This document shows, piece after piece, positions 1 through 64,000 of a stretch of DNA of 64,000 nucleotides (positions within the stretch are counted from its first letter, which is position 1; every line of letters begins with the position of its first letter). A program made the translations under genes and the position numbers. Where the stretch lies: contig OZ017752.1 of assembly GCA_963969365.1 (NCBI GenBank), forward strand, positions 1,240,001 through 1,304,000. The letters are read 5' to 3'. Source of the stretch: Asterochloris sp. CNOR1 (Eukaryota > Chlorophyta > Trebouxiophyceae > Trebouxiales > Trebouxiaceae). The notes beneath the pieces were generated by a model. The model was given only the letters and a program-made list of their open reading frames with translations, was not told the DNA's origin and ran no database searches.

Positions 1-19
1 GAGGACCTTGGATGTTTGC

Positions 20-245
20 ACATGCCTGCACCTGTCGGGCCATTGGCTCAGAGGGCAGCCTGACTCCAATGCCTCCTTGCCCGCACCCGCACGCCAGCCA
101 GCCCACGCACCTGCCTGCCTGCAACTGTTGAGGCCATGACGCACAGGGCGGCCTGACTCATATATCTGCCTGCCCAGATCCACACGCCTCCTCAAATTCC
201 CAAGCCTGCCTGCAGCTGTGGGCCATTGGCACAGAGGGCGACCTG
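20..245. repeat. Three-copy echo of an exon start (WD40 gene)
   Basis: The true acceptor and exon start (about 203-245) is preceded in the intron by two diverged copies at about 22-66 and 109-155. All three share a TGCCTGC run, a GGCCATTGGC-like core (weaker in the middle copy), an AGAGGGC or AGGGCGGCC segment and a GCCTGACTC or GACCTGCGG end. Spacing is about 90 nt. The middle copy is the most decayed. Confidence 0.7.
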
Positions 246-3200
246 CGGCCCCTGCGCACCTTTGCCAAGGCTCCAGTGCCCATCAGCACCATCACCCTGC
301 ACCCCTCGGGGCGTGCCTTCCTGGTGGCCCTATCTGATGGCGGCCTGAGCTTGTACTCCACCCAGGACCTGGCTGTCGTCTACTCCCACAGCCATGAGGG
401 CCCCATCAAGCAGGCAGAGTTCATGAGTACCGATGACATCTTTCTGGTGTCGGGCAGCAGGGTGCGACATGCGGGGGCTCAGTGAGCAGATAGGCAGCAT
501 GTGTCACAGTGTCCAGCAGCAAAGTGGGTGGCGCAGGGCAGCTTCAGCGCTGGGCAGTCTGCATTGCAGTGCATGGTGTCAGACAGCTAGGTATGCAATG
601 CAAGGGGGAGCTGTAGCGCGACGCGGCTTTGCTGCTCTGTGCACAGCGCCTGGCAGCAAGATGGGGAGCTCTCAAGGCAGCTCAGTGCACTGCTTCACAA
701 CAGTGTGCAACAGGATTCCTAAAGCTTGCAAATGGCACGCAGTGGCCTGTTTCACACATTAGGGCTCTTGCCCTGGCTGTGAGCAGGCCACAGAGGCAAC
801 AACTGTCTTCCTCCACGCTCCAGAAGGGCCAAAGACGCACGGCTCAACATGCACATGGGCTGCAGGTGTACTTCCTGCGCATCAAGCACGTCTTCCGCAC
901 CTTTGGCAGCTACCACTCTGCTCCAGAGGCAATGGAGGTGCTGGAGAACGGCCTGGTCATGACGAGTTTTGAGGACAGCAGCATCCGCCTGGTGGACCCC
1001 GACACAGCCCTGGACGCGGCCGTCACCCTACCGCAGCTCTCCCTGCAGAGCCTGGTGTCCGCGAGGTAAGCTGTACACCAGGTCAGCTGCCCCTGTCAGT
1101 ACAGCTCCCCAGAGCAGACGGGAACCTGGCAGGCGCCATTCCAGCCTTAGGCGGCCGCGCTCACATCGCATGGCAAGCATGGTTCGGCAGCTTCTGGTCC
1201 GCTGTGTGAAGTTGATGGTCACAGCTGCACAGCCACGTGTGCTGCACGGTCCATCGTTTGCGGTCTGCTGCTCCTGCCCCAGCCCACCAGCGCCTGGGTT
1301 GCCCTGACTGAGCCTGAACATCCCCAGCCTCCTGCTCCATTCCATGAGCACGGCACAATCCCGTCACCCAGGGCCTGCTGCAGGCTGCACCTGTCCACGG
1401 GCACCCTGTTTGCCCTGCTGGCTGACGGCACCATCCATGTCTGGGAGGTGGCCACAGGCAAGCATCCCGTACTGCTGGAGGTGTGGGACCACCCCACCCC
1501 CAACAACCGAGACCGCGTGTCCAGCTGCTGCTTCATGAGCGGGGTGGACCTGAGTCCCAGGCTGGCAGATCTCCAGGGTGAGCGGCTGGCATGCGTACGG
1601 GGCAACGTCTTTGGGAAGCCAAAGCGGGTGGCTTGGGCTCCAGGCTGCCCATCTGCCAGATTATTTACTGCCTGGCTGCTGAGGCTTGAGAGGGCTCAGG
1701 GAGCTGGCAGTGTCATGCAACACAGGACTTCACTGCGTGTCTCTCTGGAGATCAGCCGCTGCAGAGAGTCTCTGTCTGCCTGTAGGCCTGACACTGCACA
1801 GCTCTGGCATTTGTGAGGACCACCTGGTGGTGGGCACGCAGACAGGAGACTGCCTGTTCCTGGACATTTCACGTGGGGGCCTGGCAGTCAGCTCCTTCCC
1901 TGCACACAGGCAAGGTCGTGCGTGCAACGATGCAAGCCAAGCTCGGCATTCTGAACAGGGTTGCAGCTTACCTGTGCTGTCTCCACGGCCACCTCATGGG
2001 AAGTCCATGCTCTGTGGACTGCATCTGCCCAGGTCATCTGCTTCAAGGCACAGCCAAGCATGCTACCTTGTCTCCAATCTTGTGCAGCAATGGCTGTCCA
2101 CACCCACCTGCAGGGGCACTGCCATCACCCATGTGATGGTGCTCCCCCAGCAGCAGCGTCTGATCACCGTGGCAGACGATACTGTGAAGGTCTGGAATCT
2201 GAGTGGTGTCAAGCTGATACGGGAGACCAGGCAAGCTGCATGTGCGCTGGGCACCGCTGCTTTCGCTGAGCTGGCGTGAAGCTGCCGTCTGGAGTCCACA
2301 CTCTCTCTCACAAAGCCCGGCCCATGACTACCTCAGTTCCACATACGCTGCTGCATGAGCAGCTGCTTGAGTCTGGGTCAAAGGTTGCAGCAGCAGCCCG
2401 CTGCTCAGGACCACAAGGCTCGAATCCGGAGACCACAACTGACAGCCTCCACTCTGCAGGATACGGGGAGCCCCTGACCCACATCGCCAGCACTCATGGA
2501 TGGTGATGTGCTCTGCGGCATGTGACTACGCTGTAACGTCCCCTGCAGGATACGAGAGCCCCTGACCCACATAGCGCGCTTGGATGACATCATCGTGCTG
2601 GGCGACAGCGCTGGGGGCCTGCACACAGTGGGGTGGGAGTCGGGGGCCCTGCGCAACTCCAGCCAGCGCGCCACTGACCATGAAGGCCCCATCACGGGGT
2701 TGCATGCCAGCCAGGAGCTGCGGCACTTTGTCACGGGGGGCCGGGACGGCATGGTCAAGGTGGCCAGTCCGCCTGATGAGCTGCCCGTGCCTTCGCTGGG
2801 GCTGCGCTGACGCTGTGCTGCCAGTGTCCTTCTGCCACGTGTTCAGGCGGTGTCACATGAAGGTGGCTGGTCCCCTTCACATTGAGTGTAAAGCCTCTTG
2901 CACATGTGCAGGACTTGGTTTTGAACAGTGCGCTGTGCTCAGCCTGCTGCAGCGCAACCCTATGAACGACTGTTTGCAAGCGCCTCAGAGCTGGCCGCTC
3001 AGAGCTCATCTGGCTGCCAGAGCTGCCAGACTGCTCACACCTGCCTGCAGGTGGCAGACGCTTCCAAGCAGGTCAAGCGTGTGCTGTACCTCCTGCAGCC
3101 GGTGCAGTGCGTGTGCTTCCTGAATGCCAAGGGCGACATTCTGGCAGGCCTGGGCAACAGGGTGGTGGTGACGCCTGCTGACGCCTACCAGTACCTGTCT

Positions 3201-7422: not shown

Positions 7423-7868
7423 CATGGCAGCCATCTGCATGCCTCCTACCATCACAGGCTGTTGCTTTGGGCCGCTGCATGTAAAGAGCGCGAACTATAC
7501 CCAAGTTCATGAAATCAAACCACCTCGAGAATCTGCTGAAGAACCACATATGCTTCCCATGGCGGCTCATGGCCACAGCACCTGTGGCACACAGTCACCC
7601 TGGAGTTATGTCTCCACAACCAAGGGTTTGGCCTTTGCCTTACCAGCTGTAAACCTGCTGCCACTTGCCATCTGACCGGCTCCATGGGCTGCTAGGAACG
7701 CCCTGGTGCTTATCATCATTATAAATGCGTATCCTGGCAATGGTTGGGGACATGCATGACCCCAGGCACAAGCAGGTGGGTGGGTAGTGAAGTTCAAAAT
7801 TGATTTCCTGGGCTGGGTGAGTTTCAGTGCTGAGGGGACGTCTGTCAAGCTGAGACTAGACTACCTGG
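7423..7868. other. Convergent intergenic stretch
   Basis: This lies between the stop of the WD40 gene and the stop of the SMP/C2 gene. It is less GC-rich than the exons and holds the TGTAA at 7648. I see no further gene. Confidence 0.6.
7648..7652 (+). terminator. Poly(A) signal TGTAA (WD40 gene)
   Basis: TGTAA lies about 226 nt after the stop at 7422. This pentamer is the usual chlorophyte polyadenylation signal. Confidence 0.45.
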
Positions 7869-10800
7869 TCAGTGCGCCATCAGGTGCAGCTTGTAGAATA
7901 CCAGAACTAGAAGCAGGATACTGCCAGCCGTCAAGGCTGATAACAAAATTAGCCAGGGACGCTCCGATTTTGCAACGGCGCGCTCAAGCAACTGCTCGAC
8001 TTGCACCTCCTGCACGACATCAGGGCAGTGATGACTCTGGCTGAGATGAAGCAAAAATCAGCTTCTGGCTTGCTTCATGCATGAAGGTGGCCGGCACCAC
8101 ACCTTGAGGCGCCAGCTGTGCTTGACCTCCTCTGCAATGGCTTCAAGGGGAAGATCTGGGGGCACCACAATGGCCTCAACCACCTCCCCTTGCTGCTGCC
8201 TGTCTTCGACGACTGCCTGGTCATTGACTTCATCACCTGCAGCAGAACGTTCGCCACTACTTCTTGCAGCACAACTAGGCAGCAGTGCCTAGGAACACCA
8301 CATGCTTGCGAATGCTGGAGGCAGCAAGCTCAGACAGGCGGCATATGCTTGCATCTCGTCATGTCGCTGCTGTGAGTGCGGCCCGCCTGACTGGTTCTGA
8401 GGCTGGTCCCCCTGGCCCCACGGCAGCCACCCAACCAGGCTACTCCACCAGCTGCCTCCTTCACTGCCCTGATCCCTTGGCCCCTGCTGATCCTGTGCTC
8501 TGCCCAGAGACTCAGCACCGACCGAGCTCTGAGCTGAGTCAGGGCTCCAGCCCAGCTCCCCTCGCTGAGGCCTGGGCGCCTGCTGCTGCTGAGGCGGGGC
8601 GCTGGCCTGAAGGTGCTGCTCAAAGGCCTTCTGCCTCTCCAACTCATCTGCCTGCTGCTGCAGCTGAGGGTCCAGCCAGGACTGCTGGCCCCGCAGCTCA
8701 CTGCCACCCTCTTGGGGGCCTTGCGGCCTGCAGCAAGCACCCCATGCAGCGGTGCCTTTCAGGAAAGTGCTTCATGCGGTGTGCACTATGATGCATGTGG
8801 TGTGCACTGTGATCTGCAGTGAGTGGTGCATGCAGGGGCGCACTCAACCAGCCCATGCATGCGCCACTCACTGCAGAGTCCACTTGAGGTTGCAAATCCC
8901 AGCAGATGCGTGCCGCCACCATGTGCGCGGCTCAGCCATCGGAGCTTTCAGGCAGGTAGCCTTGTCAGGCCAGGCTGCGGGAGCTGCTGCTCATCAATAG
9001 GACAACAGAGCATCACAGGCAGCCACGACAGCGGCATGGGTGCAAAACCTCACCTGCGTGGGGCCTCGTGGCCCCGTCCGTCCAGCTTGCGGGTGACTCC
9101 CACCTTGCCCGTCACAGAGTTCATGGCAGCTGAGGCTGCCAGGGCATCCTCGCCATCCATGGATCGCCCCAGCTCGATCCCGGCATCCACAGACGCTGGG
9201 CTGTCCTGCAGGGTGGTCACTTGGCCCCGCCCAACGGAGCCCCTTGGTGCCTCAGCGGCGTCTGCAGCCCACAAAGAAGCTGTGTGGCTACCTCACACAT
9301 GGTTTAGAGGCTGGCAAGGGCACAGACGTGCGTCAGGCCTTCTGGCTGTAGCCTCCAAAAGCTGCCCTAAGCGGCACAGCTGGACCAACTCAAACGCCTC
9401 CGTGTACGAGCCACTTGCCTCATGACGACTGACGTGAGCACAACAACACAGCCATCACCGCCACACTGCAAAAATCCCTGCACAGAAGCCCACTGAGATC
9501 TACAGTACGGCCTGACCCACTTGTGGTGCTGCCGACGCCTTTGCCAGGAGAGGAGGCGGCTCTCAGCGGGTCGCTTGCCTCCTTGGTGGCCTGGCCCACA
9601 GCCTCAGCCATGCCGGACTCAACAGGCGGACCCTGGACAGCACCCTTAGCTGCGAAGGGCAAGTCCTCATCAAACTCCTCAGTAACTCGGAACTCCACGC
9701 CTGCGATGGGTGGACAAGGTCTGAGCGGTGCAGACGAAGCCCAGCCAAGGAGGTGGACGTGACCCTGCCTGCCAGGCTGCAACACGATCACCGCCTGTAG
9801 TGGAGGTCTCCTGCCTGCCAAAACTGATGGGCAGCAGCTGCTCGGATGTGGGGTGGCGCAAGGGAGAGACCAGGGCTGGACAGCTGGAAGCATAGCATCG
9901 CTGGGGTGCTTCAAATCAAGTCGCTGGCGCAAGCCAACAGAGGAGTGTGTTATGAGGTGGCAGCTTGCCAGCTGGGCACACTGCCTGGGTTGCTCCACAA
10001 GCCTAGCCTGTCATGGGGTGTGAGGGCAGCACAAGGGTGCTCGCCGCTTCATTGCATTGGCGGCAATGGGAGTTGTGAGTTCATTACCACAGGCCTGAAT
10101 ACCTGGGACAGAGTCAGCAGCTCGCCCCCTGAACACACGGTTCTGAGCCAACCTCAACCAGGAGCAGCCCCTTGAGAGCAGCAACATGCAGCAACAGCCA
10201 CCCCACAGGCATGCCATACCATCAAGGCTTGCACAGGGCCCCCACAGGTCCCTCACGAGACAACAGCAGAGCTCATGCATGATGGCGTCCAAGTTGACCT
10301 CTCGCTGCATCACACACTTATGTTATTATGAGCAAAGGTGAATGGCTACCCCCCAGCCACATGAGCTGCTCACCAGGGAACAGCTGCTCAGGGGTTATGG
10401 TGTCCAGGTTTACTTCCGCCCCCTCAGGCTGCGCCGCACGCCCCAGCTGCTCCCGCTGCAGCGAGGAGATGCGCAGGAAGTTGAGCTGGGCCTGCTCGCG
10501 GTCAGCGCTGGGGCCCACAGGGGTCTGCTTTGGACCGCTGGGGGTGAGTTCGCTGCTGGTGGAGGGGGTACCAGTCCCATTGCCTGCAGGGAGACGGGCA
10601 GTGCCAGGGCTGCTGTCATCTGCGCTTGGCAGCCTGCCTCCAGGGATGCTGAGATGCAGCATGGGTCCATTGGGATGCATCTGAGCGCTTTGCGGGGGCT
10701 GCTGCCTGTGTTCAGCATGCTACCACTCAGGTACACCTTCAGGCATGGCCCCACAGCGCCCAGTGATCTTTCCACGCCCAGCACCCACATGCAGGCAGGC

Positions 10801-13800
10801 GCAGGCACCACCCAGGCAGCATCTGTGTGGCCGCGAATGCCGCGCAGGCTGACCTGTGAGCCGGTCTGAGGGGCCCTCAGACCTCCACCTGTCAGCCATA
10901 CTGGCTGAGCGCTGAGCAGCGCTGGGCCTGCTGCCGTTCTGGCTGGCGCCGTTGCCGCTCAGGTCTGCTCCTGACGGCCTCTGGCGTGAGGCGGCACTGG
11001 CAGCCTTGGCGACTGCCCGGGCAGCCGCTGCTTTGGTCACAGCCACAGCTGCTGCTGCCGCAGAGGCAGCCACAGCCGCCCTGCTGGAGGCATCAGCTGC
11101 ACTCTGCAGGAGGCAGAGGTTGGGATCAGGTGGGCATCTTAAGGTTTGGCAACAAAAAGGGTCCACGTCAGGGGAGAGCAGCTGCTCTCTCCTGTGGTAT
11201 GTTGGCAGCAGAGTTTGGCTGACAGCGACGATGCAGCTGTTTGCAAGGTGCCCAAGGGGTGGTGGTGCTGCCCCAGCAGCCAGAGGGGCAACCAGCTTGA
11301 CAGGTGTGCCGCCACACGTGTCCCCACCTTAACATCGGTGATGTTCTGTTGCTGCCTGAGGAGCGCAAAGGCCTCAGCCTCCCTGTAGCCAGAATCCTGC
11401 TCGTCGTCCTCAAAGGGCTTATAGGTGACCTCCAGGTTGAGCTCCCCCTCAGCCTATGGTGGACGACACTTGTCTCAGAGAGAGCCATCAGCCATAAGCG
11501 GGAGTAGCCAGACATTCTCGACAACATGCCCACGCACCACTCTCACTAAGCTGTTTTGCAAATGCACTTGTTGGACCACACAGCACATAGCCCCGAGAAG
11601 TCAACATACTGATGTGACAGCAAGTAGGGCAAGTCAAGGCTCGCTGTTCGCAGGCCAGCAGCGGCGTGCAGATGTATTCGTCGGCTGGCGTCCATGGCAG
11701 GCCCCCCATGCTGGACTCTGGGGTGGATACAAGTGCTGCCATGAGGTGCCGGGCCAAGGCCATGGTGAAGAAACGATTCGAGCCTTCGCCTGGTAAGAGT
11801 TGTTCACCCCTCGGCGGGATTTGAAGCACACAATGCGACTTGCTGACAGCTGTAAGGCGGTAGGCAGAGCCTGTGTGTCCAACAGGCATATCAAGCTGCA
11901 ACGAGGGTCTTGCTGAACACACACGACGGCAGCAGGACTGATGCTGGGCAAGCAGGCAGCATAGGGCTCACCCCACCGCGGGCATGGTTGCCAACCACCG
12001 GCAGCCAGGCATTGAGGCGGCCTCCCTCAGGTAGGGATCGCAGGGGCACTCGCACCACCCCCACAGATGACCTGCCGGTGATGCGGGAATCCTTGATGGC
12101 AATCTCCAGCACCTGTAGGTGCCAAGGCATTAGCTGAGGTTTCTCCACTGCAAAAGCCAAGCAAAGCACAAATCCAGCACACATCGTCGGGTCCCTTCCT
12201 TCTTTTTGGGGGCACTGCAAGCAGCAGACACGGTCACCAGAACAGCACAAGGCCTATCTGCACCGACTTAGCTCACAGCACAGCAAGCAATCCCAAACTT
12301 TGACAGGCAGCCTGACCCAGGCTCAGATGATACGTGAGGTGATGTTAAGCAGTGGACTGGGCAGAACGCAGAGCACAGAGCAGGGGCTTGCCTGGGACTG
12401 CACTTGAAGGACTTGCCTGGGGTTGCAGTCAAAGCAGAAGGACAATAATCGACAGCTGCAGCACCGCCAGGCTTGCCTGGTCCTGCACATCTTCTACCAG
12501 GAACTGGAACTCCTGGTTCCACACGGGCGCCTTGTGGCTGCCCTCGTGACTGGTGTCATCGTCCCGCCGGCTGCGCACAACCTGGCTGCCCAGCCTGAGC
12601 CGGCAGTAGGGATTGCTCTGCCAGGGAAAGCCCCACACCGGGAGGTTTCGAGCCTCCTTCAGGTTCACCTGCACAGGACAAGGGTGGCTGGCTGACAGAC
12701 AAGCTTGTGGCCCAGCAAAGCCTCTCAGTGCCGCCTTGCATTGAGGGGTGAAGCAGCTGAGGAGAGGCAGGTGGCCAGTGACTCAGTCTTTGGTCTCAAT
12801 TGGCAGCTTGCTGCAAGCAAGGCGGGTACTACCGGTGCAGGCCAGGCAGCCAGGATTCCAGCTGCTGAAGGTTTGAAGCAGTGACGTCATGTGGCTCCCC
12901 AGCCTGCTGCCATGAATGCTCTTGTGCTCACCTGCAGTTCCCCAGAGAAGGAGTCTGGCAGGGACACGCCGCCAGCTGCGCTCTGAGGGCCCAAGGGCAG
13001 GGCAGCGATCAGGGCGTGCTCCAGTGCATCAGCCTGCACGGACAGAAGGCAGCTGTCAGGCCAGCATGCATCAGACAGGCCTGACCTTGCAAGCGAACCT
13101 GCAAGCAGCGGCCGCTGCGGAGGCCAGCAAACCTCAAGCATCTGCCACACAGGCTCACAGGGACCAAGCACAGCTTACTGGAAGCAAGTAAATGTGAAGA
13201 TGTTGCCTCTGCAGCCATTGCAACGAGAGCTGCCACTTTACCGCTTCCTGGGCTGGGCAGGGCATGCACAGGCAGGCGCAACACCAGAGGCCAGCATCTA
13301 CAGTGTTGCACTGTCTCAGCAGACCACAGCTTGCTCAGGCAGGCCTGGACAGAGCTTGCTCACAGTGCATTGCTAGACAGAGTGCCATAACATCAAGAGG
13401 CGAGGCAGTACTGTTGACAGAGAAGCTTGCTGGCGGCACTGCTGTGGCAACAGCTTGCTGCCATGCTGCATCAACAAAGCAGGTCACAGCATGCACCCAC
13501 AGTCTTGAAGACACAGGCTTGCCTGCAACACAGCGCTGGCCACAGCCCTCATGACCACATCATGCCCCACAGCCGCCTCAGCCACAGAGGTGATGGCAGG
13601 CGGGATGTTTATCTCCAGCCGCTTTGGCAGCACCATCAGGCTGGGCAGGTCCACAGTCAGCAGCTTCGTCAAGAAGGCCTGCAGCAAAGGTTGTCAGATG
13701 ATTTGTCAGGATCGCCCGCAGCAAAGCCAGACTGAAGCTTCGTCACGGAGGCCTGCGGCAAGGCTGGTAATCGGCTTCATCAAGAAAGCCGCAGCAGAGC

Positions 13801-16477
13801 CTGGCAGCTTGTGTTGATCCCTCACTTGCTGCCCTGAGTGCCTTGATTAGGGACTTGGATGCTGGACTCTCACAGGAGACACAGAGGTCGGCTGCAGACA
13901 CTCTGCAAATACCACACTGAGCCATGACATGAAAGCCAGCTGCCAGACCAAGCACAGCCATGCAGTGACCTGATGCCCAGCAGCAGGCAACGTGCAGCCC
14001 TTGAAGAGATGCCATTTCCAGCAGATTGGCTAGCAGCTGGGTCAAGCAGATTGTCCTGCACTTCGCAGAGCTGTGGCTCACCTGGAGCACCGGGATGCGC
14101 ATCAGCCGCACCCTGTTGTAGGGCAGCAGCTGCACCTTGATTGTGGGCGAGCCCACAAAGGCCAGCGAGATGGTGCCAAAGTAGGGGCACATGGGCGCCA
14201 GCCTGATCTTCAGCCAGAGCTTGCACTCCAGGTCCAGATCGGACACCAGCACAGGGATCTGCAGGAGGCAGGATGCCAGTACTTGGAGCCAGCACAGCGG
14301 CAGGGAGACCTCATCAGCCACAGCTTGCACCCCAGGCCAGAAACTAGCACAGGCAGGCAGGCAGACAGCACTTGCAGCCAGCACATCAGCAATGCTTGCC
14401 TCAGAGGACAAGTCCTGAGCCAGGGCTTGTACCTCAGATGTACGTCAGAACCCATCACAGGGATTTGCAGCAAGCAGCCCACCAGCATACCATGCAGCTG
14501 AGAGCAGGTACTGTGTCACACCTTGCACTTGAATTCAGGTCAACACCAGCACAGTGGACTGCACCATGGAGGTGCCGCAGTTTCTCGATCATCAGGTCAG
14601 AGGAGCCACAAGCCAGCAGATGCACAAGGCTGGCTGCAGGGTACATCTGAAGGACCAGCGCCTTGGATTGTTGACGCAAGGCCATGCAGCGTGCAAGACA
14701 GCACAACAAGGTGGGTGCACCCAGCCAACTGGTCATCTCAGCCACCTTTGGGCAGTCCTCCCCATCTGCCTCTAGCAGCAGCAACATGCGGCGCTGGACC
14801 AGCAGCTCCATGCACGAACAACTCTGGAACAGCCACTAAGGGTGCACCACCAGCCCCTACCTTGGGGGCGCCACATGCCCGACACCATGGCAGCAGCTTG
14901 CGCAGTACTTGTGCAGCACCCTCCAGGACACACCTTCAAGCGCCACTTGCCCGATCCTATCTCCACCAGCAGCAGCATGCGGGCGCCGCCTGTGTATCGT
15001 ACGTCCACCACCCCATTCAAGTCTGAGTCCTTGCGGCTGCTGCGGCGCCTCATGTTGTTGAAATAGGGGGCCTCATGATCAAGGGTGAACTCAAGGATGC
15101 GCAGGCGTTGCACGAAGCGGGGGACTGCAGCAGTGTACACAAGCAGTGCTCAGAGGGGCTTGGGGCTTAACGGCACTGCAGCAGGCCATGACAAACACTC
15201 AAAATTGCAGCTTCAACTGAAGCATGGCACTGCTGCAGGCGCCATGCTGACAGGCAGGCCTGATGCTTGAGGGGTGCTTGCATCTTGTGCACACTCCATG
15301 CATAGGCAGAGCCTGTTCTGCTGGATATTATTTCGCTTGCGTGCTACCAGCAGGGGTTCAGCTGTACTCTACCTGTCTGGTCAGTGATCAGGCTGTCAAA
15401 GACAGGTTGCAGCAAGTCAGCCAGCCAGCGCTCCAGGCCACGCTGATATATGCGCCAGGCCTGCAGAAGGTGCCAGGGGGGACCACTCAGCAGGACTGCT
15501 CTGCAAGAGGGCTAAGGGGTGTTTGACATATCAAGAGACCTGCTCGCTCCGCGTGCAGCTGCTGTGCTGAGCATGATTGCGAGCCCTGGCTTCTGCTGCA
15601 CAGGGCCGCATGGAGGACGGTGTGATAGTGAAGCGTTTGAAGGGAGTGGCCTCCCCTCCAAGAAGCAGCACACAGCCAGATCAGCGGAGCAGCCTGCCCT
15701 TGCAGCAGACCGCAGACAGCATGCCAGAACTGCACATGCACACGCACAGCCCTGCGGAGTTGAGCAGTCAGGCAGCCTGAGCAGCCGGTCTTGCAGCACA
15801 TTACAGTCTAATCGCGCACCACACAGTCCTTTTCCTGCAGACATGCACAACCCACCTTGCGCCAGCACATGTTGACCCACTCCACTGACTCCGCATAATC
15901 TGAATACAGCACCAGGGCAGTGCTCTCCTCGCAAGAGTCCTTGGGTTCCTCCTTGGCAGGTGGGGGCTCGCGCCGGCTCCAGATGAAGCGCCTTGCAGGT
16001 GCAGGCGGCATGGAGGTCTTGCAGCAAAATGGTTGGTTGAGCTCTCATGGAGATGCACGCTGCAGGAGCAGGATATGCCAGGAGTGTACAGCACACAATG
16101 CCATCAGTGGCAGAAAGCTGCAAAGATGAGGCCGCCAAGGGGATACAAGCTGCTGGGGAAAGCCTGTTCATATGAACATTCGCTCGGAGACCTGCAGCCT
16201 GGTCATGTGGCCCTGGGACTGGCCAGCAGCCACAGCATGGAAGGGAGCCAACATAGTGCCCACACAGGCCCCTCCACCACCCAGCCACACCGCAGATGCC
16301 TAGCAGACCACACCGGCCTCACCTAAAGATGTTTTCCCAGAAGGGCGACACAGAGAGCCAGCTAAACAAAAACTGCAGCGCCATCGCCAGGAAGACTCCC
16401 AGAGTGAACATGCCCCAGCCGTGGTGGCCCCTGCCAGGGTCGCGAGGCATAGGTGGTGCGGGCGCTGCAGCCATCAT
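7869..16477 (-). CDS. SMP/C2 lipid-transfer protein, NTMC2 type 5-like
   Basis: Reading 5' to 3' on the minus strand, the protein has an N-terminal membrane segment (about 16330-16477, MFTLGVFLAMALQF). An SMP domain follows, spread over exons at about 15.86-16.0, 15.4, 14.94-15.13, 14.08-14.26 and 13.55-13.68 kb. Its motifs SVEWVNMCWRK, VRYTGGARMLL, DLECKLWLKIRL and FLTKLLTVDLPSL closely match Arabidopsis NTMC2 type 5 proteins as I remember them. One C2 domain follows (12.66-11.34 kb; NLKEARNLP, SNPYCRLRLG, LNLEVTYKPFEDD). After it come an Ala-rich segment, a second beta-rich stretch (10.68-10.85 kb), low-complexity and coiled-coil exons, and a C-terminal membrane segment ending four residues after KLH. 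SMP domains carry lipids between membranes at contact sites; this family is linked to ER and plastid surfaces in plants. The C2 loops lack most calcium-binding Asp residues. The start given is the first Met of the MMAAAP exon; the frame stays open upstream, so the true 5' end may lie nearer 18 kb. Confidence 0.85.
10258..10440. repeat. Donor-side echo in the SMP/C2 gene
   Basis: The exon encoding EVNLDTITPEQLF (about 10366-10440) is followed on the minus strand by a diverged copy at 10258-10310 encoding a similar EVNLDAIMHEL. Both copies are followed by a GTGAG-type donor. Confidence 0.55.
13661..13800. repeat. Three-copy acceptor-side echo in the SMP/C2 gene
   Basis: Units at 13661-13690, 13734-13765 and 13772-13800 share GCTTCGTCAAGAAGGCCTGC or close variants. 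The first unit contains the true exon start on the minus strand (GCCTTCTTGACGAAGC). The other two sit in the upstream intron. Confidence 0.7.
14211..14560. repeat. Four-unit ladder of exon-start echoes
   Basis: The true exon start (14211-14265; minus strand encodes IPVLVSDLDLECKLW) is repeated in the intron upstream at about 14313-14355, 14418-14470 and 14519-14560. Shared elements on the plus strand are CAGAGCTTGCACTCCAGG-like and ACCAGCACAGGGAT-like segments. Spacing is close to 103 nt each time. Confidence 0.8.
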
Positions 16478-24500: not shown

Positions 24501-25075
24501 AGTGGACACCTGAGGAGTGCTCCTCCAGGTGAGCGGCTTGCGGCATCCTATGAGTATCATAGTAGACCTCTTGAGTAAGTGCTCCTCCTGGTGGGCTGCT
24601 TGTACAAGAGCAGTGGAGCAATGGCTGCCAAGCATGGCGCCCCATGACAGGCTCTGGAGTGCTGTTCCAGGGGTTCTGGCTGCATCAGCTGTGAGGGACG
24701 GGGCTGCAGATGACGCAGAGACTGGTCAGGGCGCTGATGGCCGCCAAGCTGGCTATCACCCTGCACAGGGTCTCTTTTGAGGCAGTGGGTTCTGGCAAAG
24801 TTGCTGGGGGCGTGTCTGTCAGATTGCGCGCCGTCATCAGCAGCCTGGTGTAGCTGGCAGCTACCTGTGAGCCTGTCCTGCCTGCCTGCTGCAGGCACTG
24901 CTTGGAGGTACATGCCAGAGCTGGCATGCTGGCTGATACAGACAGCATCCGGCAGATGCTGGCTGAGATACTGCCTGCCGCCCAGAACGGTGCCACAGTC
25001 CATGAGCTTTGGAGACCCTGGCCTGAACCATACCCCATGACTGGTGGCACTGGGCTTTGGTGGGACGTTGCTTGA
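21531..25075 (+). CDS. GT61 family (DUF563) glycosyltransferase
   Basis: The diagnostic C-terminal block of the family is clear: SRHGPFLANTLFLPPG (about 24058-24103) followed after an intron by AVVLELLPYNWEWRG (from about 24336). This matches the GT61 consensus HGAgLtN-lFl-pga-v-E-lPy. Earlier exons encode FRVYHSLWFHAQRFLAT (21718-21870), MSLNIMAIRMPIAGATSF, NTVMIDIPFPAYPENMGHW (22384-22560), ECGGMRVGATIKSGG, IIVCYDELETMP (to 22948) and GGFHSVEHGQAFRAAAYRL (23490-23725). The last exon ends ELWRPWPEPYPMTGG then WWDVA and stop. GT61 enzymes transfer xylose, arabinose or GlcNAc in the secretory pathway. The first assigned exon starts MQLQHVLLELLLGLF, a possible signal anchor; an upstream exon cannot be excluded. 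Two exon edges are duplicated in the following introns. Confidence 0.85.
22890..23121. repeat. Donor-side echo, GT61 gene
   Basis: The 3' end of the exon (22892-22948) and a copy in the following intron (23064-23121) align over about 57 nt with scattered substitutions. Shared blocks include GCCCCAGCAGA and CTGGGCATC/TTGGGCATC, followed by a CCTGCTG segment and ATGACA. The copy has an in-frame TAG, so it cannot be a substitute exon in that frame. Confidence 0.8.
24511..24601. repeat. Donor-side echo spanning the splice site, GT61 gene
   Basis: GAGTGCTCCTCCAGGTGAGC with GGCTTG (exon end, donor and intron start, about 24513-24540) is repeated as AAGTGCTCCTCCTGGTGGGC with TGCTTG about 56 nt further on. 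The donor dinucleotide context is weakened in the copy. Confidence 0.75.
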
Positions 25076-25093
25076 AGCTTCACCATGCAGAGA

Positions 25094-25098
25094 TGTAA
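25094..25098 (+). terminator. Poly(A) signal TGTAA (GT61 gene)
   Basis: TGTAA lies 19 nt past the stop codon at 25075. Confidence 0.45.
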
Positions 25099-47681: not shown

Positions 47682-47686
47682 TTACA
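47682..47686 (-). terminator. Poly(A) signal TGTAA (secreted Cys-rich protein gene)
   Basis: TTACA on the plus strand, about 119 nt beyond the stop at 47805 on the gene strand. Confidence 0.5.
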
Positions 47687-47804
47687 AAGAGTGGCACTCT
47701 CACTGTTGAAACTTCTGGGGCGCAGTTCGCAATAATCACACATTTATTGCTGAGCAAGCTCAAGAGTCGTGCTGTCCAAGGATTAGCGGGGGGGGGACCA
47801 ATGC

Positions 47805-50800
47805 TCAGTTGCTCTCCTCCAGCTTCTTAGTTACATACAGGTCCTTGCCATTGCACCAGGCGCCCATGGCAACGCCCTCGCCTGGCTTGGCAGCTGCACG
47901 TACAGCCTTCTTGCCTGCAGCAGCCGGGCACGCCAGCACTTGCCATTGGATGGGACAGACATGACCATTGTCAGGCAGCCTTTTGCAGACCCCAACAGGA
48001 GGTAGCTGGCTGCTAGTGCAGAAAGCCAATCTACAGAGGGCGTCTTGGCCAGCAACGCAGCTCTGTTGCGTTGTGAGCAGGTTCAAAGCAGCCTTGACCC
48101 CTTGCCCTTGCACTACTGAACCCATCACATCTTACCAGGCAAGTGATCAGATGGCCAGGGCTTACCTGCGCAGAAGTCGTACACCTCCATGCCGTCTTCG
48201 CCGTGCTCAAAGTCGCCATGGAATGCACTGAAGCCAGTGCAGGTCTTGAAGAGCTTGCCAGTCCAGAGTCCCTGCAGGCAAAGTAGCATGCATGAGTCTG
48301 TACATCCTAACATTCTGCTGCAAACAGTTCACCACAACAGCTGGCTGCCAGTCAAGGGGCCAGCAGCAGCAACACAGAGCAGACTGCTGCAGCTATACAT
48401 TGGGGGTAGATCAGAGTTGAGCAGCACAGTCATGAGCAACCACCAAGACAGCTTGGGCTGCCATGCAGGGGGGCAGCAGCAAGCCTTGTTGTGAGTGCAG
48501 GCCAGTCCTGCTGGTCTACTGTATTGGCACCACACCTGAGAAGGTGTGGAGTGCACCCACCTGGCAGGAGGCCGTAACCTCGTTGCCGTGCATCTCCGCA
48601 TGCACCTCAAACTTGCCCCAGCAGGGCAGGAAGCCATGGGCCCACACAGGGCGCCCGTTGCAGGTCTCACGGAGGCCGCGCTGAGGGCCAGGGCCCATCT
48701 CCAGGAGGTCTGTCCCGCTGGGCAGGCTCTTGGGCACCAGCTCCATGCCAGCCTTGTGCAGGGCCTTCTCCAGCTTGTCTGCAGCAGCAGCCGCATTGAT
48801 CTCAGCACACTGCCTCTGCCGACAGGATCTTGGGGCAGCCTCATCAGGCCCAGCCCTTAACCAGCCTTGTGCAGGGCCTCCCTCCAGCCTGTCAGGCCAA
48901 AGCATTACGGGGGCAGCGAGGATTGACATGGCGTGGGCAGAGCAGGACAATCTCTACAAAGACCCTGGTGGACAGACAGTGGGCAGTGCAGCTCCCAGAA
49001 CAGCACAGGACATGGCACAGTCTGCATCAATGCAGGGCACAAGCAAACAGCTCAGGCAGCCACCAGCAGCGCAATTGTACAACAGGTCAGCAGAGCGGGC
49101 GATCATGGTGGCAGAGCATGCAGTTGGGATCACGCCCCTGGAGGAGGCCAATGCAGAGCGGCCAAGGGCAGCAGCATGCAGCAGCGGCAGCAATATGCAA
49201 AAGCCGGCACTCACGCTCCAGTTTGTCATAGTTGAAGCAGTCCTTGGGGGCATTCTTCTCTTCCCTGCAGTAGATAGGCACAGCGTCAGCACTGGCAGCA
49301 GGACAGCTATTTGACAATTGCTTGTGCAGACAACACTGACCCTCCCTGTAGTGCACCCTGCCATTTGCACTGCCAGCAAAGTCTGCAGGCACAGCTCTGC
49401 AGCCAGGAAACAGGGCCAGTGGACGGCTGCTGCAGGTTGCACTCTGGGCTCTAGGTGACAGGCACCCCTGCAGCAGCGCCAATTCGCATGGTATCCAGCA
49501 GCAGAGGCCCCAGCAGCAGAGCAGCCAGCAGGCCAAAGCCTGGCTGCTACCTGCCTCACACACACACGCACAACAAAAACGCTCACCCAGTGTGCTGTTC
49601 GCCTCCTTGGGGCTTGTAATGCACTGATCTGCAACTTTCTACCACTGCAGGCACTGGGCCCATATTGGCAGGCTCTCAGCACAGGGATGCAGCTACGCGC
49701 TTTTCTGGGGGTGTGCGTGCCCTTCAGGCCTGGCATCACTGCTGCACTGCCTGGGCGCTCGCTGCTGCAGGCTGGCCCTCGAGTACTCACCCCTCCTTGT
49801 GGGCGTGCTTGCCCTTCTTGCCCTTGTCATGCTTGCCCTTCATCTTCTTGGGCTTGTCCTCATCACTGTCCTCATTGTCCTGATGCTTCCCCTTCTTGGG
49901 CTTGTCCCCCTTCTGGGGGCCGTGGTGATGGTGGTCCTTCACTGAGAATGCGCGGAAGCGCCCGCTCAGGCCCCTGCAGCGAGCCTCTGCAATGGTGTCA
50001 TTGCCTGCAGGCAAGGCGGTGGACACTCACGCATGGAAGTGGCAGATCAGGCGGCAGGTGTCCACACAGGCGTTGGGCGCAAGCAATGGCACAGACGCCT
50101 GCAGGCATCGCGGACTCAGCTAGTACTTCATGCCTTGCATGCTGCTGGAGGGGCAGGCTGGTTCTGGGGCCATGTGAGCCTCTGTGATGATGTCGCTGCC
50201 TACATGCAGCACACGCATGCAGCCTGAAGTCCATGCTCTGCATGTCTCCTGCAGGCAAGCACGAGCCAGCAGTGGCCGGCAAGCCCAGCCTGGCAGGCAG
50301 TGAGCTCCTGTAGGGGTGTCATTGCCTGCAGGCAGCAGACACACAACTGCAGTCAGGGCTGGCACATGTGGGAACCAGCAATGCTCTGGCCTGCCCGCGG
50401 TGGCTGCTGCTGGGCACAGATGCAAGCCCCTGCTCCCAAGATATAAGCCAAATCCTGCTTGTCAAAAGCTGGTGCTGGCAGTCCCCCCACAGCTAAGGCG
50501 AGAGGGAGGCTAGGGGGGCTGTCGTCCAGTCTGAGGGCTCACGCCCAGACACACAGAGTCGTTGGACGCCGTGCAGCGCACACGGCCTGAACACCCAAAG
50601 GTAGGCAAGAACGCTACCAGCAGGGCGCCGACAGGGCCTTTTGCCATTCTGAAGCAGCTGTCTCACACCACACACAGCCTGAGCAAGCTATGAATAGGCC
50701 AGAACAGCGCCACCAAAGCTGCACGTGCCACAAGCACAGCAGCTCCCAGCACCACCACAGCCGTGCCAACCAAGAAAGGTGGCACAGTAATTTCTGGCAG

Positions 50801-52424
50801 GCCTCACCAATGGCGGACCACAGGCTGTCGATGCTGCCTGTGACTTCATCAGCATGCTCCATGTCAGACAGGCCTGCCATCAGGGCTGGCCGGGCTTCTT
50901 CGCTGCTGCTATTGCCTTCAATGGTCTTGATGGCAACGGTGGTGCCGAGGCAGCCATATGCAGCCACTGCCTGCAGTGCAAGGCAACAAATATGCAGCAG
51001 AGTCGCAGCAGATGATGAGCCACCTTCAGGGAGCCAGCCAGCAAGAGCACCAGCCAGCAACTTAAGACGGCGTGGCTTCGTGAGGAGCTGAGCTGTGCAC
51101 AGCAGGCAAAGCTTGCGGGGGAAGCAGTGCTGATCCTGCAGGTCAGCAGCAATGGACGGCGCTGCCCGCCAGATTCATGGACTGAGGATGCCCCCCATGG
51201 GGCCAATGATGCAATGTCTTCCAAACCTCAGCAGTGAGTCATCTCAGCTGGAAGGAGGGCGAAGCTGCTGCAGACTGTGCCTCGAGGGACATTGGCCAGT
51301 CAAGTGGCCTACCGTGAACTCCTTGTCTGTGTCATTGATGGCCTTTGCCACCTTGCCGAAGTTCTTGAACAAGCCCTCGCAGACGCTGACCACGGCGCCA
51401 TCCTTTTCGACGGTGGTGGTCTTGCCCTCGCACTTGGCTGCATACACGCCGTGGCCCTTGCCCTTGTGTCCCTTGCACACGACCTGCGTGCCAAGGGAGG
51501 CCCCTTTGCTGCTGGCGTGGGGCGGTGCAGCTGCACACCCAAGCAGTGCAGTGCGCAAGCAGTGCAATAGGCACTCTCCTGGCAGGCAGGATGGGGTCTG
51601 GATGGCCCATGAAGACACCACCTGTGTGCCGGGAGAAGCCCCTTGACGGTATTGTTTGCAGCAGTGCAGGCACACCAGGGCTGCCAAAGCAGGCAGTGCA
51701 GTATGCAGGCTCTGGCAGGATCACCCATGAGCACACAGCCCAATTAGCTGACCCCTGCATGACCCCTGCGTAGCAGCTGTTCAAGGCAGTGCAGGTGCAA
51801 GAGCCTACACATGCAGATGTGACCATTATCTCACGGTGAAGGTGCCCACGCAGGACTGTGCCTCCTCCAGCTGCCCAGGGAGAGTCAATGCTGAAAAATC
51901 CTCCTCATCGTTGCACCTGCAAGGCCAGAGAAGTGCCTGCTTCATATCGCATTATTAAGCCCCTCTGGCAGGAAGCAAACCCAGCTCAGAAAGCCTCAGC
52001 GGGTCCACACAGGCTAATCTTTGTCTCGTCTGTGGCCACTGCCTGGACCCACCTGACTTTGCATGTGACATTGGACTCTTTGGTCAGGCTGGGCAGGCTG
52101 ACAGGCGTTGTGCTGGCTTCAGTCTGAACCCACAGGACGTCCTGGTCTCCCGCAATGGGCCCCTCATTCTGCTGCTTGTCATGGTGCTTGCGGGCTGATG
52201 CTGCAGCACAGATGAATGACTTATGTGTGACAACTCTGCTGCACATACCGAAGCAGTGCGGTAGGCTTGCCCCGCTCTCCCAACTCAGACACCCGCACCC
52301 CTCAAGCTGACAGGCATAGCAATGGGGTGACAGATCAACTCGCAATCGGACCAGGCAGCAGCTCACCACTCGCGGTCAGGCAGACAAGAAGCAGCACCAC
52401 TGCTGCACGAACACCCCTCGCCAT
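47805..52424 (-). CDS. Secreted Cys-rich protein with a Lys/His-rich block
   Basis: Exon 1 at 52424 encodes a signal peptide, MARGVRAAVVLLLVCLTASG. Later exons, 5' to 3': about 52054-52203 (ends NVTCKV), about 51831-51915 (LPGQLEEAQSCVGTF), about 51313-51515 (CKGHKGKGHGVYAAKCEGK, VCEGLFKNFGKV), about 50808-50972 (AAYGCLGTTVAIKTI), about 50547-50592 (RVRCTASNDSVCLG), about 50031-50104 (NACVDTCRLICHFHA), about 49793-50006, about 49206-49265 (EEKNAPKDCFNYDKLE), about 48562-48818 (TCNGRPVWAHGFLPCWGKF), 48166-48272 (TCTGFSAFHGDFEHG) and 47805-47910. Nearly every exon carries Cys, as expected of a disulfide-bonded extracellular protein. The 49.8-50.0 kb exon holds a hydrophilic run starting HHHHGPQKGDKPKKGK, alternating Lys/Gly/His with acidic clusters. 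I do not recognise the family. No membrane anchor or retention signal is seen at the C-terminus (TKKLEESN). Confidence 0.75.
48752..48906. repeat. Echo of the first part of an exon in the upstream intron
   Basis: CCTTGTGCAGGGCCTTCTCC with AGCTTGTC in the exon (about 48753-48780) recurs as CCTTGTGCAGGGCCTCCCTC with CAGCCTGTC at about 48863-48891, in the intron upstream on the minus strand. Spacing is about 112 nt. Confidence 0.75.
49976..50333. repeat. Echo ladder flanking a small exon
   Basis: The exon start at about 49976-50012 (minus strand GNDTIAEARC) is echoed at about 50165-50207 (GSDIITEAH on the minus strand) and about 50290-50333 (GNDTPTGAHC). A different short exon (50031-50104) sits between the true copy and its echoes. 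Confidence 0.7.
51478..51669. repeat. Acceptor-side echo in the secreted Cys-rich protein gene
   Basis: The exon stretch encoding GASLGTQVVCKG (about 51476-51515) is echoed at about 51605-51645, encoding GASPGTQVVSS. Spacing is about 131 nt. Confidence 0.75.
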
Positions 52425-58871: not shown

Positions 58872-59041
58872 AACTTGACAACCCTTTGACTGCAGTCCCT
58901 CACTCTGACTGCATGGCTGCTTGCAGTTCTCCTTTTTGACCTATGAGGTGGAGCTACTTTCATCTCTGGCTCTTTGCCTGAGGCAGCGTGCCAGCAGCAC
59001 CAGACACACAAAGCCTCATCTCAAACAAAGGCAACATTACC

Positions 59042-62000
59042 TCAACACGGGTGGGCGGGGATGCACAGACCAACCATGAGGCGCCCACTGCTGAGGGTGC
59101 CAGCTGCAATCCACTCAGACACCACTGCAGGGAGGTGATTGTCGGTCACTTCGCCAGGCCTCCATAAAAGCCCAACAGTATGTGTCTCAATACAGATCGG
59201 CCCATTCGCGTGCTTGACAGCGAAGACCTGAACGGTGGGCATCCAGGTCTCCTCCTGGGTACTTGTCGTGGCGGTCTCCATGACCAGGCCCCACTTGTTG
59301 CTGCGCTGGTCGTAGTGGAGACACAGACAAACTGTCAGGGCGCCAAAGCGCAGACTGGGGAGCGGTGCACGGTCATGGTACAGGTCGCAGGCGATGCTGA
59401 TGCCGCCGGCGCCCCACCTGGTCAGGTTTTCCAGGTTGGTCTGCGGGTCACACCTGAACAGACCTCAGACAACAGCACCATCTGGTGAAACTGTTGAGGA
59501 CAGTGCGCAGGGCATGTACACAGGACGCTGTAAAATGAGAATTACCAGGGTGATCTGCGTTGCTGGGCAGCGCCATTCAGGCAGCCTGTCTTGGCATGTG
59601 CATCACGGGCTTGAGGACAGCCATTGCAGCACCACTAGAGACAGGATAAGCAGCACCAGCTGATGCAGGGGACAGCAGCATGTGTACAGAGCCAGGCTGG
59701 CACCCATGGAGAGACAAGCTGTTCAGGGAGGGATGCAGCAGGATCCAGGTGCAAGTGAGGAGATCTGAGTGCAAGGCGCTGGTGGCGTGAATGCGGGAAG
59801 CCAAGCCATTGCAGTTCAGGAGTTTCAGCATTCAGACCCACCTGGCCCACAGTCGTGTTGCCTTGCTGGACGGGGGTAGGAGGGCAGGATTCCACGTCAA
59901 CCAGGGCTCGCAGCAGCGCAGGGTCAGCCAGGGTTGCCCGCATCCCAAAGCTCTGGCAGTGCTGCTGCACCTGCAGACAGGGATGCGACCTCAGCGCAGG
60001 TCTTGCCTGACTGAGAACATGTTGTTGGGCGTTGTGAGGGACTGCAGGCGTCCTGGCTGGCATCTGCATGCAAGGCTTTGGCATGCTCAGTGTGGGCTGT
60101 GTCAGGCTCCCTGCCTGCCCGGCATGCAGCAGCCAGCAGGCACAGGATGGGCAACTGGCCGCATCGCAGTCTGCCTCAAGCCGCCTGTGCAGGGTCCCCA
60201 CCATCACAGAGTGCTGCTGCATGTGAGGGGGAGGTTCAAGGCAGGGGATGCCAGAGGCTGTGCGGTGTGACCTCCAGGAAGACCATGGTCTGCAATGTAC
60301 CTTTTCAGCCGTCGCAGGCGCATTGCTGAGCGTTGTCACCCTCACGAAGCTTCCTGGCTATCCCCACATTGCTGACACTGCTGGCATGGCAAGCAGGCTC
60401 GCTCAGCAGCTCGCCTAGCATCCCTCCTTCTGATGGCAGCGGCCCTCTTCCTCACCTGCTGAGAAGGGTCAAGAGTCAACGGTCTGTATCCTGCCATGGG
60501 CCCACCCAAGACTTGCACTGGCAGCGCCAACAGCATGTCCTCTTGAAACGGGTGTTCAGGACAGAGCGCTCAACCGCCAAGGTCCCGACCTGAACAATTA
60601 CCAAGGTCCCGACCTGAGCAAGTGAGATCTGCTGTGGGGCAGACTATGAATGCACAGTGCTTGCTCTGCTCAACCAGAAGCATTACGTGATGCTTGACTG
60701 CCGTTTTCAGCACATACAGCTCCGGGCCAACCAGGCGGGGCAAGGCATGCCGCCAGAGCTCGACAGCCTGCGTCAGGGGCCCGTTCGCAGGGTTGCCTGT
60801 AACAATTGCAGCATTGTCCATCTCGGCCTCCTCCACAGCTGCTATGGTCAGCCCCAGCTGGGCCACCTACAGTGGCAGGCAGGTAGGCACTCATGGTAAG
60901 GATGCTGCTCGGCACCCCGCCTGGCAGGCAAGGAGGGCACCCACAGCTAGTTGCCAGCCTGAACAAAGGCGTCTGTGAGGTTCTCCACAAGGCAGCAATG
61001 CGCTTGCAGGAGGTTGTTCCCTGGCCTCTGCTGTGGCTGTGATGGTCACATAGCCTGCTCGGCTGAGCAAGCTGGCAGGTAGACAGGCACAGGCTGCCCA
61101 TGGGCATGAGCAGGCAGGCAGGCATGTCCATCACAGATGCTGTCCAGCAAGCTGTCCAGCGGCGCGCATGTGTCAGGCCAGCATGCCCTGCCGACACTTG
61201 CCAGGCCCACAGGCAGCCTGCAGGCAGCCCCTGCCAGCCTGCGCATCTGACCACTCTATGCAGGCTGGCACCAACGAGGCTTACTGGCAGCTGGGTTGCA
61301 GGTTGGGCCCCCTCGTCCATGAGGAGCTGTGGCGAGGTGCCCGTGCAGCATGGTGCACTCACCGTCAGCTGAAAGGAAGGCTCCCGACAGCAGTTCCCGG
61401 AGCAGCTGTGGCTGGATCAGGATGAGGCTGCATACATGTGCAGCATGGCATGGCACTGGGGAAGACAGATGATACAACCTCCTCTCTCTCTCTGGGGCAA
61501 TTAATAAAGGACCACCCAATAACCTCAGGGAAGACAGGTGCCTTGTGTACAGACAGCAGCAATGCTCACCGGCAGCTGGGAAGGCAGGGTTCCCCCCTCC
61601 TCCCTGAGCAGCTGGGACAGGTTGAAGGGGAGCTGCCCATGCAGTACGGCATGGGCCAGGCCCTTGAGACCCTCATGGGGCGTGCACAGCTGCTTGAAGA
61701 GAGCATCCTTCAGCAGCCTGTCTAGCTCCAAAGCAGTGTCTGTGCAGTCCTCCAGCAGGCTGGTCAGCGCGCCAGCGGGGCCCTTGAGGGCGCTAGCTGC
61801 CACCTGGAGACGCATATGCAGGACAGGTTGTGGCGCGTGCAGCAGTATGACATGCACCGAGTGCTCTGCAGAGCTTGTTTGCAGATGGAGCAGTTGTGCA
61901 GCCCTCAAGAGGGCTGGCCAGGGCGCCAGCAGGCTCACAAGGGCGTTGGTGCAATAGCATGTTTGGAGGGCATGAATCAACCCACCGCCTCACACCTCAG

Positions 62001-62555: not shown

Positions 62556-63753
62556 GGTCAAGGAGGGGGCAGAGATATGTAGGTGTGAAGTTCGGGGCAC
62601 ACAATGGGATGAACGGAATCAAAGTCTCGGGCATGGGACTGAACGATGACAGCTGTTGACTAGCTATAGCACACTTGACCATTCAGCTGTACATGACTGC
62701 AAGTGTTAAGTTAACATCAAAGTAGAGCACCCGAATGACCGATCGATCGCGACCTGCAGTAGCTCCATGTCAAGGCGCTGCTCAGTAGCCAGCCCTGATG
62801 TCTGAGCAGATCTCACAGGCATGAGGTATGTGTCATACCGCCCCCTTGCTGTTGCGGAGCAGGACTAGCAGGTGCCAATGCCGGGTAGCATGCTGCAGCA
62901 TGAGACACGGCGCACATCAGTTCTTACTACCCAACTCTGGTCTGTGTGGTGCAGACTTGGGGTCAACGCCAGACAATCTGGCAGCAGATGGCACGCACCC
63001 GCAGCATAAAGGGCATGCACACAAAGACGGCACCGCTGCTGCCCCATGCTCTATATTATGGAGGAAGATGACATCTCTGTTGTGCCCGGCAGCCGCCTCT
63101 CTGTGGCTCAGATGCTTATGTACAACCAGCGCTGTGGGGCTTTCCTGCAGATGAAGGCTTGTCGCATGCAGGACACCCACTGAATCCTGCAAAATGGCCT
63201 CCTATCCCTCCTCTCCTGGTCGTCCTTAGCCCTTGTATGGCAGGTGTCGCATTGCACACCCAATGCATGAAGGACAGCTATCACATCTTTGCTGCTCTGT
63301 TGCTATCGACATGTGCCAGGGCAAGCGCTTTCTGCTGTTGTGCATGCTGGCAGCTTCCTTTTTGGGGTTCAGTCAGGCCAGGGAATACTAAAGCCTGCAA
63401 GCACTTAGCTGAAGCTCCTGACAGCCAGCTGCTGGCCTGGATTGACTACCACTTTCCAAGAGTCACTGAATAGGCGTCCGTGGCCAAATTATCATCGGGC
63501 CTTAGTGGAGTCACTTCGCTGTGCAGCTCACCCGTGACAGAGTAGAAGGTGCCAGAGATCAGGGGCTGAGAGGGTGCCCCACTGACAGCAGTGACAGGTG
63601 GTTTGCCACAACCTCTCTGACACTGGAGGCAGCAAGCCATGTCAGGGGGCATATGCAATTTCAAAGACAAGGGTATAGGTGCGAAGTCTGGGATGAGAGC
63701 TTAGCGATCTATCTGCTCCCTGCCATCCGCTTACTGCTGGACCTTCTCTGCAG
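62556..63753. other. Divergent intergenic region and unresolved first exon of the VPS4-like gene
   Basis: This must hold the promoter of the minus-strand BTB gene and the promoter and first coding exon of the plus-strand gene. A short open frame at 63058-63183 (MEEDDISVVPGSRLSVAQML) is the only striking one. No exon matching the first residues of VPS4 was confirmed. Confidence 0.4.
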
Positions 63754-64000
63754 AGTTTGTCAAGAAAGCAGTTGCAGCAGACAATGCAGGGGAGTATGAT
63801 GAGGCCATTCACAACTATGCAACAGCCTGCCAGGTCAGGCAGCTTGCCAAACATGTACTCGTCATGTGCTTGCTGTGCCCTGCCTGAGGCTGGCGTGCTG
63901 CTGTGCAGTACTTCCTCACATATCTCAAATACGAGAAGAGCGAGTCTGCCAGAAACATCGTGTTGCCAAAGGTAGGCATCCCATATGGCCTGCAGTCTGC
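63754..64000 (+). CDS. VPS4: VPS4/SKD1-type AAA ATPase, MIT domain exons, 3' part outside the window
   Basis: Exon 63754-63833 encodes EFVKKAVAADNAGEYDEAIH and NYATACQ; exon 63909-63971 encodes YFLTYLKYEKSESARNIVLP K. Together they match the first two and a half helices of the MIT domain of VPS4 (canonical VKKAVeaDnAgnYeeA and yFlthLKYEkn). VPS4 disassembles ESCRT-III filaments in endosomal sorting, cytokinesis and membrane repair. Both exons are in phase. The ATPase domain must lie beyond 64000. Other MIT-containing AAA proteins such as katanin or spastin lack the YFLTYLKYEK pattern, which favours VPS4. The initiating exon is not identified. Confidence 0.8.

Follow-up and report, generated by a model that had tools for sequence, protein, structure and literature searches.

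Why should introns hold decayed copies of the exon edges that adjoin them? The question was raised by a 64-kb stretch of the lichen alga Asterochloris sp. CNOR1 (G000:C7:1240001-1304000, here called the window), where an earlier reading of the sequence alone had listed 15 examples of such copies and proposed that introns lengthen by tandem duplication of a unit spanning an exon edge. We analyzed the window together with five 50-kb stretches, a total of 314 kb from a 56.4-Mb genome in 21 contigs. The pattern of these copies, which we call exon-edge echoes, is confirmed as real. We consider it probable (about 0.8) that the echoes are the remains of short direct tandem duplications that hit gene bodies regardless of splice junctions, and the pattern is explicable without a new molecular process.

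Exon edges recur inside their own introns

The excess of local copies is visible without any gene models. Among direct-repeat pairs of at least 36 bits in the six blocks, 106 of 120 were spaced 50-400 nt, whereas only six inverted pairs reached that strength, two of them within 500 nt, with no excess like that of the direct pairs. Repeat density between blocks was about 1000 times lower (49 pairs in 0.082 Mb2 vs 107 pairs in 0.00014 Mb2). The local set comprised 196 overlapping pairs, grouped into 125 clusters, where chance would give about 5.5 pairs; it holds no pair less than 50 nt apart, which we take to be a near-diagonal rule of BLAST, and shorter units lie outside this measure.

The same conclusion follows from exon edges. 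From 636 introns in predicted genes of at least 100 aa, we took the 364 whose exons both measured at least 45 nt and aligned each 45-nt exon edge to its own intron, with a Smith-Waterman (SW) score of at least 28 as the main cutoff. Donor edges matched their own introns in 21/364 cases and the introns of other genes in 7/14,560; for acceptor edges the counts were 20/364 and 20/14,560. The reverse complement of the own intron was matched by one donor edge and no acceptor edge (1/364 and 0/364), and other introns of the same gene gave 0/1,221 and 2/1,221. At the looser cutoff (SW of at least 20), 64 donor and 57 acceptor edges of 364 matched, vs 6.3% and 6.5% of controls. The outcome that would have told against the sequence-only reading, own edges matching no better than unrelated ones, thus did not occur. 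At least one echo at the main cutoff was present in 40/364 introns (∼11%, about one in nine of those tested).

Each of the 15 window examples (Table 1) was compared with 300 chimeras built of 40-nt genic chunks. Thirteen reached P ≤ 0.01, eight of which pass 0.05/15; the example at 34722-34965 was borderline (P = 0.013) and that at 10258-10440 weak (P = 0.047). Against a looser control, 14 of the 15 exceeded its 99% point. The central claim, that introns hold diverged copies of adjoining exon edges, is therefore borne out. Chance similarity from CAG/CTG-rich composition has in its favor that the sequence is rich in CTGCAG and that one example is weak and one borderline; however, the signal is absent from composition-matched controls, the reverse complement, and same-gene introns, and the pairs far exceed the chance expectation given above. 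These controls refute chance as an account of the whole pattern, and its probability is negligible.

Dispersed repeats, including transposable introns of the introner type, are an exceedingly improbable source. Local repeats and intron growth could stem from such elements, but only three matches of at least 50 bits joined different blocks, all intergenic on the classified side, and there was no local inverted excess. Three window units (14207-14477, 36776-36914, and 39160-39267) had one genome match each in a search that skips very common words. For the material seen, the 314 kb and these three units, we reject introners and transposons as the source, as no intron families across genes appeared. 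One dispersed repeat was noted on two contigs, in predicted intergenic DNA (L002, C1:504618-505266 and 509355-509775, vs C2:528040-529191; 74-82% identical); it is possibly an old mobile element.

Table 1. Exon edges and their intron copies in the window, with P-values from the chimera control
Feature	Span	Strand	Predicted exon	Spacing (nt)	Remark	P
Three copies of acceptor-side edge: 23-62, 116-155, 207-245	23..245	+	start 216			0.003
Acceptor-side echo 2454-2487 of exon edge 2543-2575	2454..2575	+	start 2549	89	with CTGCAG	0.003
Weak pair 10271-10301 / 10386-10416	10271..10416	-			SW 22; insecure alone	0.047
Acceptor-side echo 13736-13800 of 13662-13727	13662..13800	-	13523-13678	74		0.003
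Exon edge and intron copies 14311-14391, 14418-14477	14207..14477	-	14082-14258			0.007
Donor-side echo 23064-23120 of exon edge 22890-22946	22890..23120	+	end 22947	174		0.003
Donor-side echo 24578-24601 of 24516-24539	24516..24601	+	end 24528	62		0.003
Acceptor-side echo 29230-29254 of 29105-29129	29105..29254	-	28920-29126	125		0.003
Acceptor-side echo 34722-34758 of 34908-34944	34722..34944	+	start 34912			0.013
Acceptor-side echo 36776-36818 of exon edge 36872-36914	36776..36914	+	start 36881	96		0.007
Donor-side echo 39241-39267 of exon edge 39160-39186	39160..39267	+	end 39202	81		0.003
Acceptor-side echo 48833-48893 of exon edge 48720-48779	48720..48893	-	48561-48778	113		0.003
Acceptor-side edge, intron copies near 50176-50208, 50297-50333	49976..50333	-	49791-50004			0.010
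Acceptor-side echo 51616-51644 of 51478-51506	51478..51644	-	51313-51530	138		0.007
Acceptor-side echo 61889-61933 of 61732-61779	61732..61933	-	61570-61803	about 155		0.007

All gene models come from a hidden Markov model (HMM) self-trained on the DNA of the 314 kb alone. It converged on 653 introns (mean 275, median 245 nt) and yielded 57 gene models, with predicted donors CAG/GTGAG and acceptors CTGCAG/G (slash, splice junction). GC donors occurred in 102/653 predicted introns (∼16%), a high share for a eukaryote. Four of six scanned predicted proteins had Pfam matches, which supports the models, as does an independent prediction (P0001, below) for one gene; the 419-aa model of the gene at window 20876-25402 had none at E ≤ 0.001. 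The intergenic share by these models is 16.5%, vs about 26% given for the published assembly (PMC6652019), so some called introns may be intergenic.

Units across splice junctions

The copies adjoin their source in the same orientation (direct pairs at 50-400 nt), as expected of tandem duplication across a junction. Tandem continuation beyond the matched stretch was significant in 26/102 clusters, with five expected, and some alignments repeat exon end, donor, and intron start together (e.g. c3 43746, c2 7157, and c4 5699). Across 46 echoes, the 30-nt exon part had a mean identity of 0.756, a value inflated by picking echoes on their exon match; the intron part reached 0.577 vs 0.491 in controls (P = 6 × 10−7). 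Units holding both exon edge and intron flank are thus present, though not visible in every case.

A second line of evidence comes from P0001 (Astpho2 fgenesh), an independent gene prediction. Astpho2 is presumably JGI's Asterochloris genome, and the window organism is, from the protein comparison, the same as or very close to the strain behind P0001: when the predicted protein of the gene at 33488-40138 was compared with it, 4/12 tblastn rows were 100% identical and the rest differed past exon ends. At three echo junctions of this gene, P0001 takes the outer copy. Echoes can mislead gene finders: within the one at 34722-34758, our own models place a 21-nt exon that P0001 does not have. Together with the intron-flank identity, the P0001 junctions uphold the proposal of a junction-spanning tandem duplication whose outermost splice site is kept.

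Several observations weigh against this reading of the units. Continuation was not significant in 76/102 clusters. Selecting on the intron flank instead of the exon yields few matches (4/310 and 7/310), in which the exon part was 0.527 (n = 4) and 0.597 (n = 6) vs 0.466 in controls, a nonsignificant difference (P = 0.13 and 0.11). Moreover, several highly similar echoes break off abruptly at the exon edge, their intron flank being at background, as at c5 32067 (identity 0.87 over the 30-nt exon part and 0.53 in the intron part). Taken singly, such echoes are explained by plain tandem decay only if the unit ended at the exon edge; they fit units with such ends but do not prove them.

Unit spacing had a median of 117 nt (quartiles 94-174; 125 clusters), broader than the 90-130 nt read from the window, and unit length modulo 3 was flat (42/40/43), with no sign of multiple-of-3 spacing. 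Among echoes scoring at least 26 and reaching within 2 nt of the junction, AG was retained in 6/13 acceptor copies and GT/GC in 8/13 donor copies, so the copies that were said usually to include the splice site do so in only about half of the cases. These figures bear on whether the echoes function as alternative exons or splice sites that selection maintains. A splice dinucleotide is kept in 14/26, and the echo 39160/39241 (spacing 81) reads in the exon's frame, but the spacing shows no triplet preference, the echo at 22890-23120 has a stop codon in the exon's frame, and the P0001 model passes over all three echoes in its gene. We regard function of this kind as very unlikely. Elsewhere, at C2:539742-540043, a predicted exon (∼88 nt) with short flanks is duplicated at 87% identity and a spacing of 206; it is possible that this is a new exon made by the same process.

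Relatives were compared through amino-acid readings of open frames running through introns, obtained from protein searches. P0096 runs ungapped through the intron that includes the 14311 echo, and in P0045 the 36776 echo is read through in the tblastn alignment, although the multiple alignment did not line up that echo. P0093 has the 39241 echo and, after a copied intron start, an apparent further copy of the exon edge in another frame (score 45; 99% null 41; highest of 500 shuffles 47). What makes this second echo appear convincing is that it directly follows the copied intron start. Since three echoes are common to relatives, they would predate the splits, and the protein-level matches suggest that unit copy number has changed between relatives. 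Echo-bearing introns were also longer (median 493 vs 275 nt), but longer introns leave more room for matches. Intron lengthening as first proposed is consistent with both the longer introns and the apparent extra unit in a relative; what the data do not favor is that it is active at present, as described below.

Distribution and age of the copies

The duplication process is not specific to exon edges. Compared with the expectation from rotation, the 196 pairs included 65 intron-intron pairs (66 expected), 59 of an edge-straddling and an intron copy (30 expected), 46 of an exonic and an intron copy (40 expected), and 12 with both copies straddling an edge (6.8 expected). Pairs wholly in coding sequence (CDS) numbered 2 vs 8.5 expected (z = −2.2), and intergenic pairs 7 vs 25. 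Intron-internal copies are thus common, and the edge specificity first read from the window is not upheld: local duplications in which neither copy has more than a little CDS, most of them intronic, occur just as often. An equal-target test did find a copy at 35/528 edges vs 29/1,264 intron-internal windows, a ratio of 2.9 (95% interval 1.7-5.5, bootstrap by gene). Under selection on the exon copy, only the other copy would drift, halving the decay of the pair and about doubling the time for which it stays visible; two lies within this interval. Slower decay of exon-intron pairs could therefore explain the edge excess.

A process targeted at exon edges, for instance one linked to splicing or RNA, would instead copy exon ends into introns directly. 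This 2.9-fold edge excess, the doubling of edge-straddling and intron pairs over rotation, and the echoes that start exactly at the exon boundary without intron flank all speak for it. On the other hand, intron-intron copies make up a third of all pairs (65/196), the edge excess is within the range of slower decay alone, and units hold the intron start in clear cases, apparently in P0093 too. We consider targeting unlikely and retain duplication regardless of junctions.

In our proposed explanation, duplication of units of about 60-300 nt would strike gene bodies irrespective of splice junctions. Whenever the duplicated stretch included an exon edge, splicing would continue at the copy next to the exon, which would stay under coding selection, and the inner copy would become intron and drift, the intron gaining about one unit in length per event. 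Duplications inside introns would be tolerated too; those inside exons would be lost, as apparently would many intergenic ones, and the echoes probably survive because a copy ended up inside an intron. With one copy fixed by selection, the pair would diverge half as fast and remain recognizable longer, the likely cause of the edge excess. The duplications themselves would most likely arise when staggered breaks or paired nicks are filled in and their ends joined, and the activity was probably mostly a past burst.

Two features would not be expected if the process were constant and uniform, and they count against this explanation in its simplest form. The first is an intergenic deficit of twofold to eightfold, depending on the method. 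Intergenic runs of at least 300 nt included 2 with an internal pair in 49.6 kb (0.040/kb), vs 32 long introns with one in 111.5 kb (0.287/kb); by cluster majority, 4/125 were intergenic (0.77 vs 6.3 per 10 kb). Random 45-nt windows gave only a twofold difference (18/1,500 intergenic vs 38/1,500), possibly with the same places resampled. Selection on untranslated regions and promoters, or gene-model errors, may account for the deficit. It is possible, though doubtful, that a gene-body-confined and largely finished episode of ∼100-nt tandem duplication lengthened a large share of this lineage's introns, and that intergenic DNA escaped it through a link of the cause to transcription or introns, not merely through selection.

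The second feature is the scarcity of young copies. Full-unit identity was below 0.85 in all 125 clusters. Among pairs without CDS and with at least 40 aligned nt, 24/25 lay at 65-85% (the remaining one is a 31-nt repeat at 55559), so that 1/25 exceeded 85%, against about seven expected in each 5% step at a constant rate; pairs with CDS reached 90-92% in 1/53. This spread of identities is compatible with slower decay of exon-intron pairs. At 90% identity or more, clusters with a single CDS-bearing copy and clusters without CDS numbered eight each, identity being a poor clock for short matches; those below 90% comprised 63 with CDS in one copy, 34 without, and 12 with CDS in both. There were hardly any young copies with exact breakpoints. 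We rejected the idea that BLAST had hidden close repeats, as a separate diagonal scan (at least 37/40 identical, spacing 20-1000) gave only nine matches, two from one array; four, at spacings of 67, 106, 123, and 204, show that short near-identical stretches exist inside larger, more diverged units. Unusual mutation resembling repeat-induced point mutation was also rejected, since changes from exon to echo had no strong bias (transition/transversion ratio 1.12; A to G 13%, T to C 8%). The echo duplications are apparently old, and an ongoing process is not supported.

The window also contains a perfect 31-nt tandem array of 3.5 copies at 55559-55665, inside a predicted intron. Among Tandem Repeats Finder (TRF) arrays with a period of at least 30, only this one, a 39-nt array (c5 13332), and another 31-nt array (c2 42191) exceeded 90% match. 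Repeats of short period thus seem to be of more recent origin than the ∼100-nt units.

Known systems and meaning

The echoes differ from introns born when an exonic AGGT segment is duplicated in tandem (the Rogers model), in which the echo is the new intron itself. At c5:25214-25309, the upstream exon end is repeated 22/22 at the 3′ end of the intron with a spacing equal to intron length, and c2:22179-22324 is similar. Among the listed echoes, however, only these two have that spacing, and an ungapped test found 1/404 introns at 15/25 or better (0.03 expected) and its mirror 0/404. Both kinds of duplication lie within genes, but the segment here often contains an existing junction. Rogers-type birth is possible for one or two introns and highly improbable as the general cause, in agreement with the distinction drawn by the sequence-only reading.

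Small tandem duplications from break repair are reportedly also treated by Vaughn and Bennetzen 2014 and Schiml et al. 2016. Like the echoes, the duplications made by fill-in and end joining are direct, short, and tandem (PMC8355091); the parts of that work consulted concern mutation studies and make no statement on introns or splice junctions. A closer parallel is the potato RdRp gene, where a tandem duplication crossing an intron-exon boundary created a new intron (Ma, Lan and Niu 2016, PMC4974935). There, as here, the unit joins the 3′ end of an intron to the start of the next exon, with splice signals duplicated along; as described, it concerns one gene and a new intron, whereas here many genes are involved and an existing intron is lengthened. 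Internal gene duplications with intron and exon parts, as cited in PMC3443670 and PMC4974935, are also alike. The titles and abstract openings that we searched held no description of genome-wide exon-edge echoes; subscription journals lay mostly outside the search, which is therefore no proof that the pattern is unpublished. To our knowledge, those internal gene duplications have not been described as genome-wide echoes of exon edges in introns. The supposition that nothing of the kind had been described agrees with this search for the genome-wide pattern and fails for junction-crossing duplication as such, given the potato gene.

The phenomenon is known in kind, as tandem duplication across a splice junction; here it is genome-wide and lengthens introns rather than creating them. 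Changes in intron length are mostly attributed to transposons and small insertions and deletions. In this alga, ∼11% of tested introns (40/364) still show evidence that they grew through duplications beside or spanning their own splice junctions, and two puzzles, the scarcity of young copies and the intergenic deficit, come with it. The exon copy roughly preserves the ancestral sequence, so that an echo could be used to date a single growth event and to test which of the duplicate splice sites wins. The value of the finding lies in those two puzzles and in showing that, in one lineage, introns commonly grow by duplications that span a junction.

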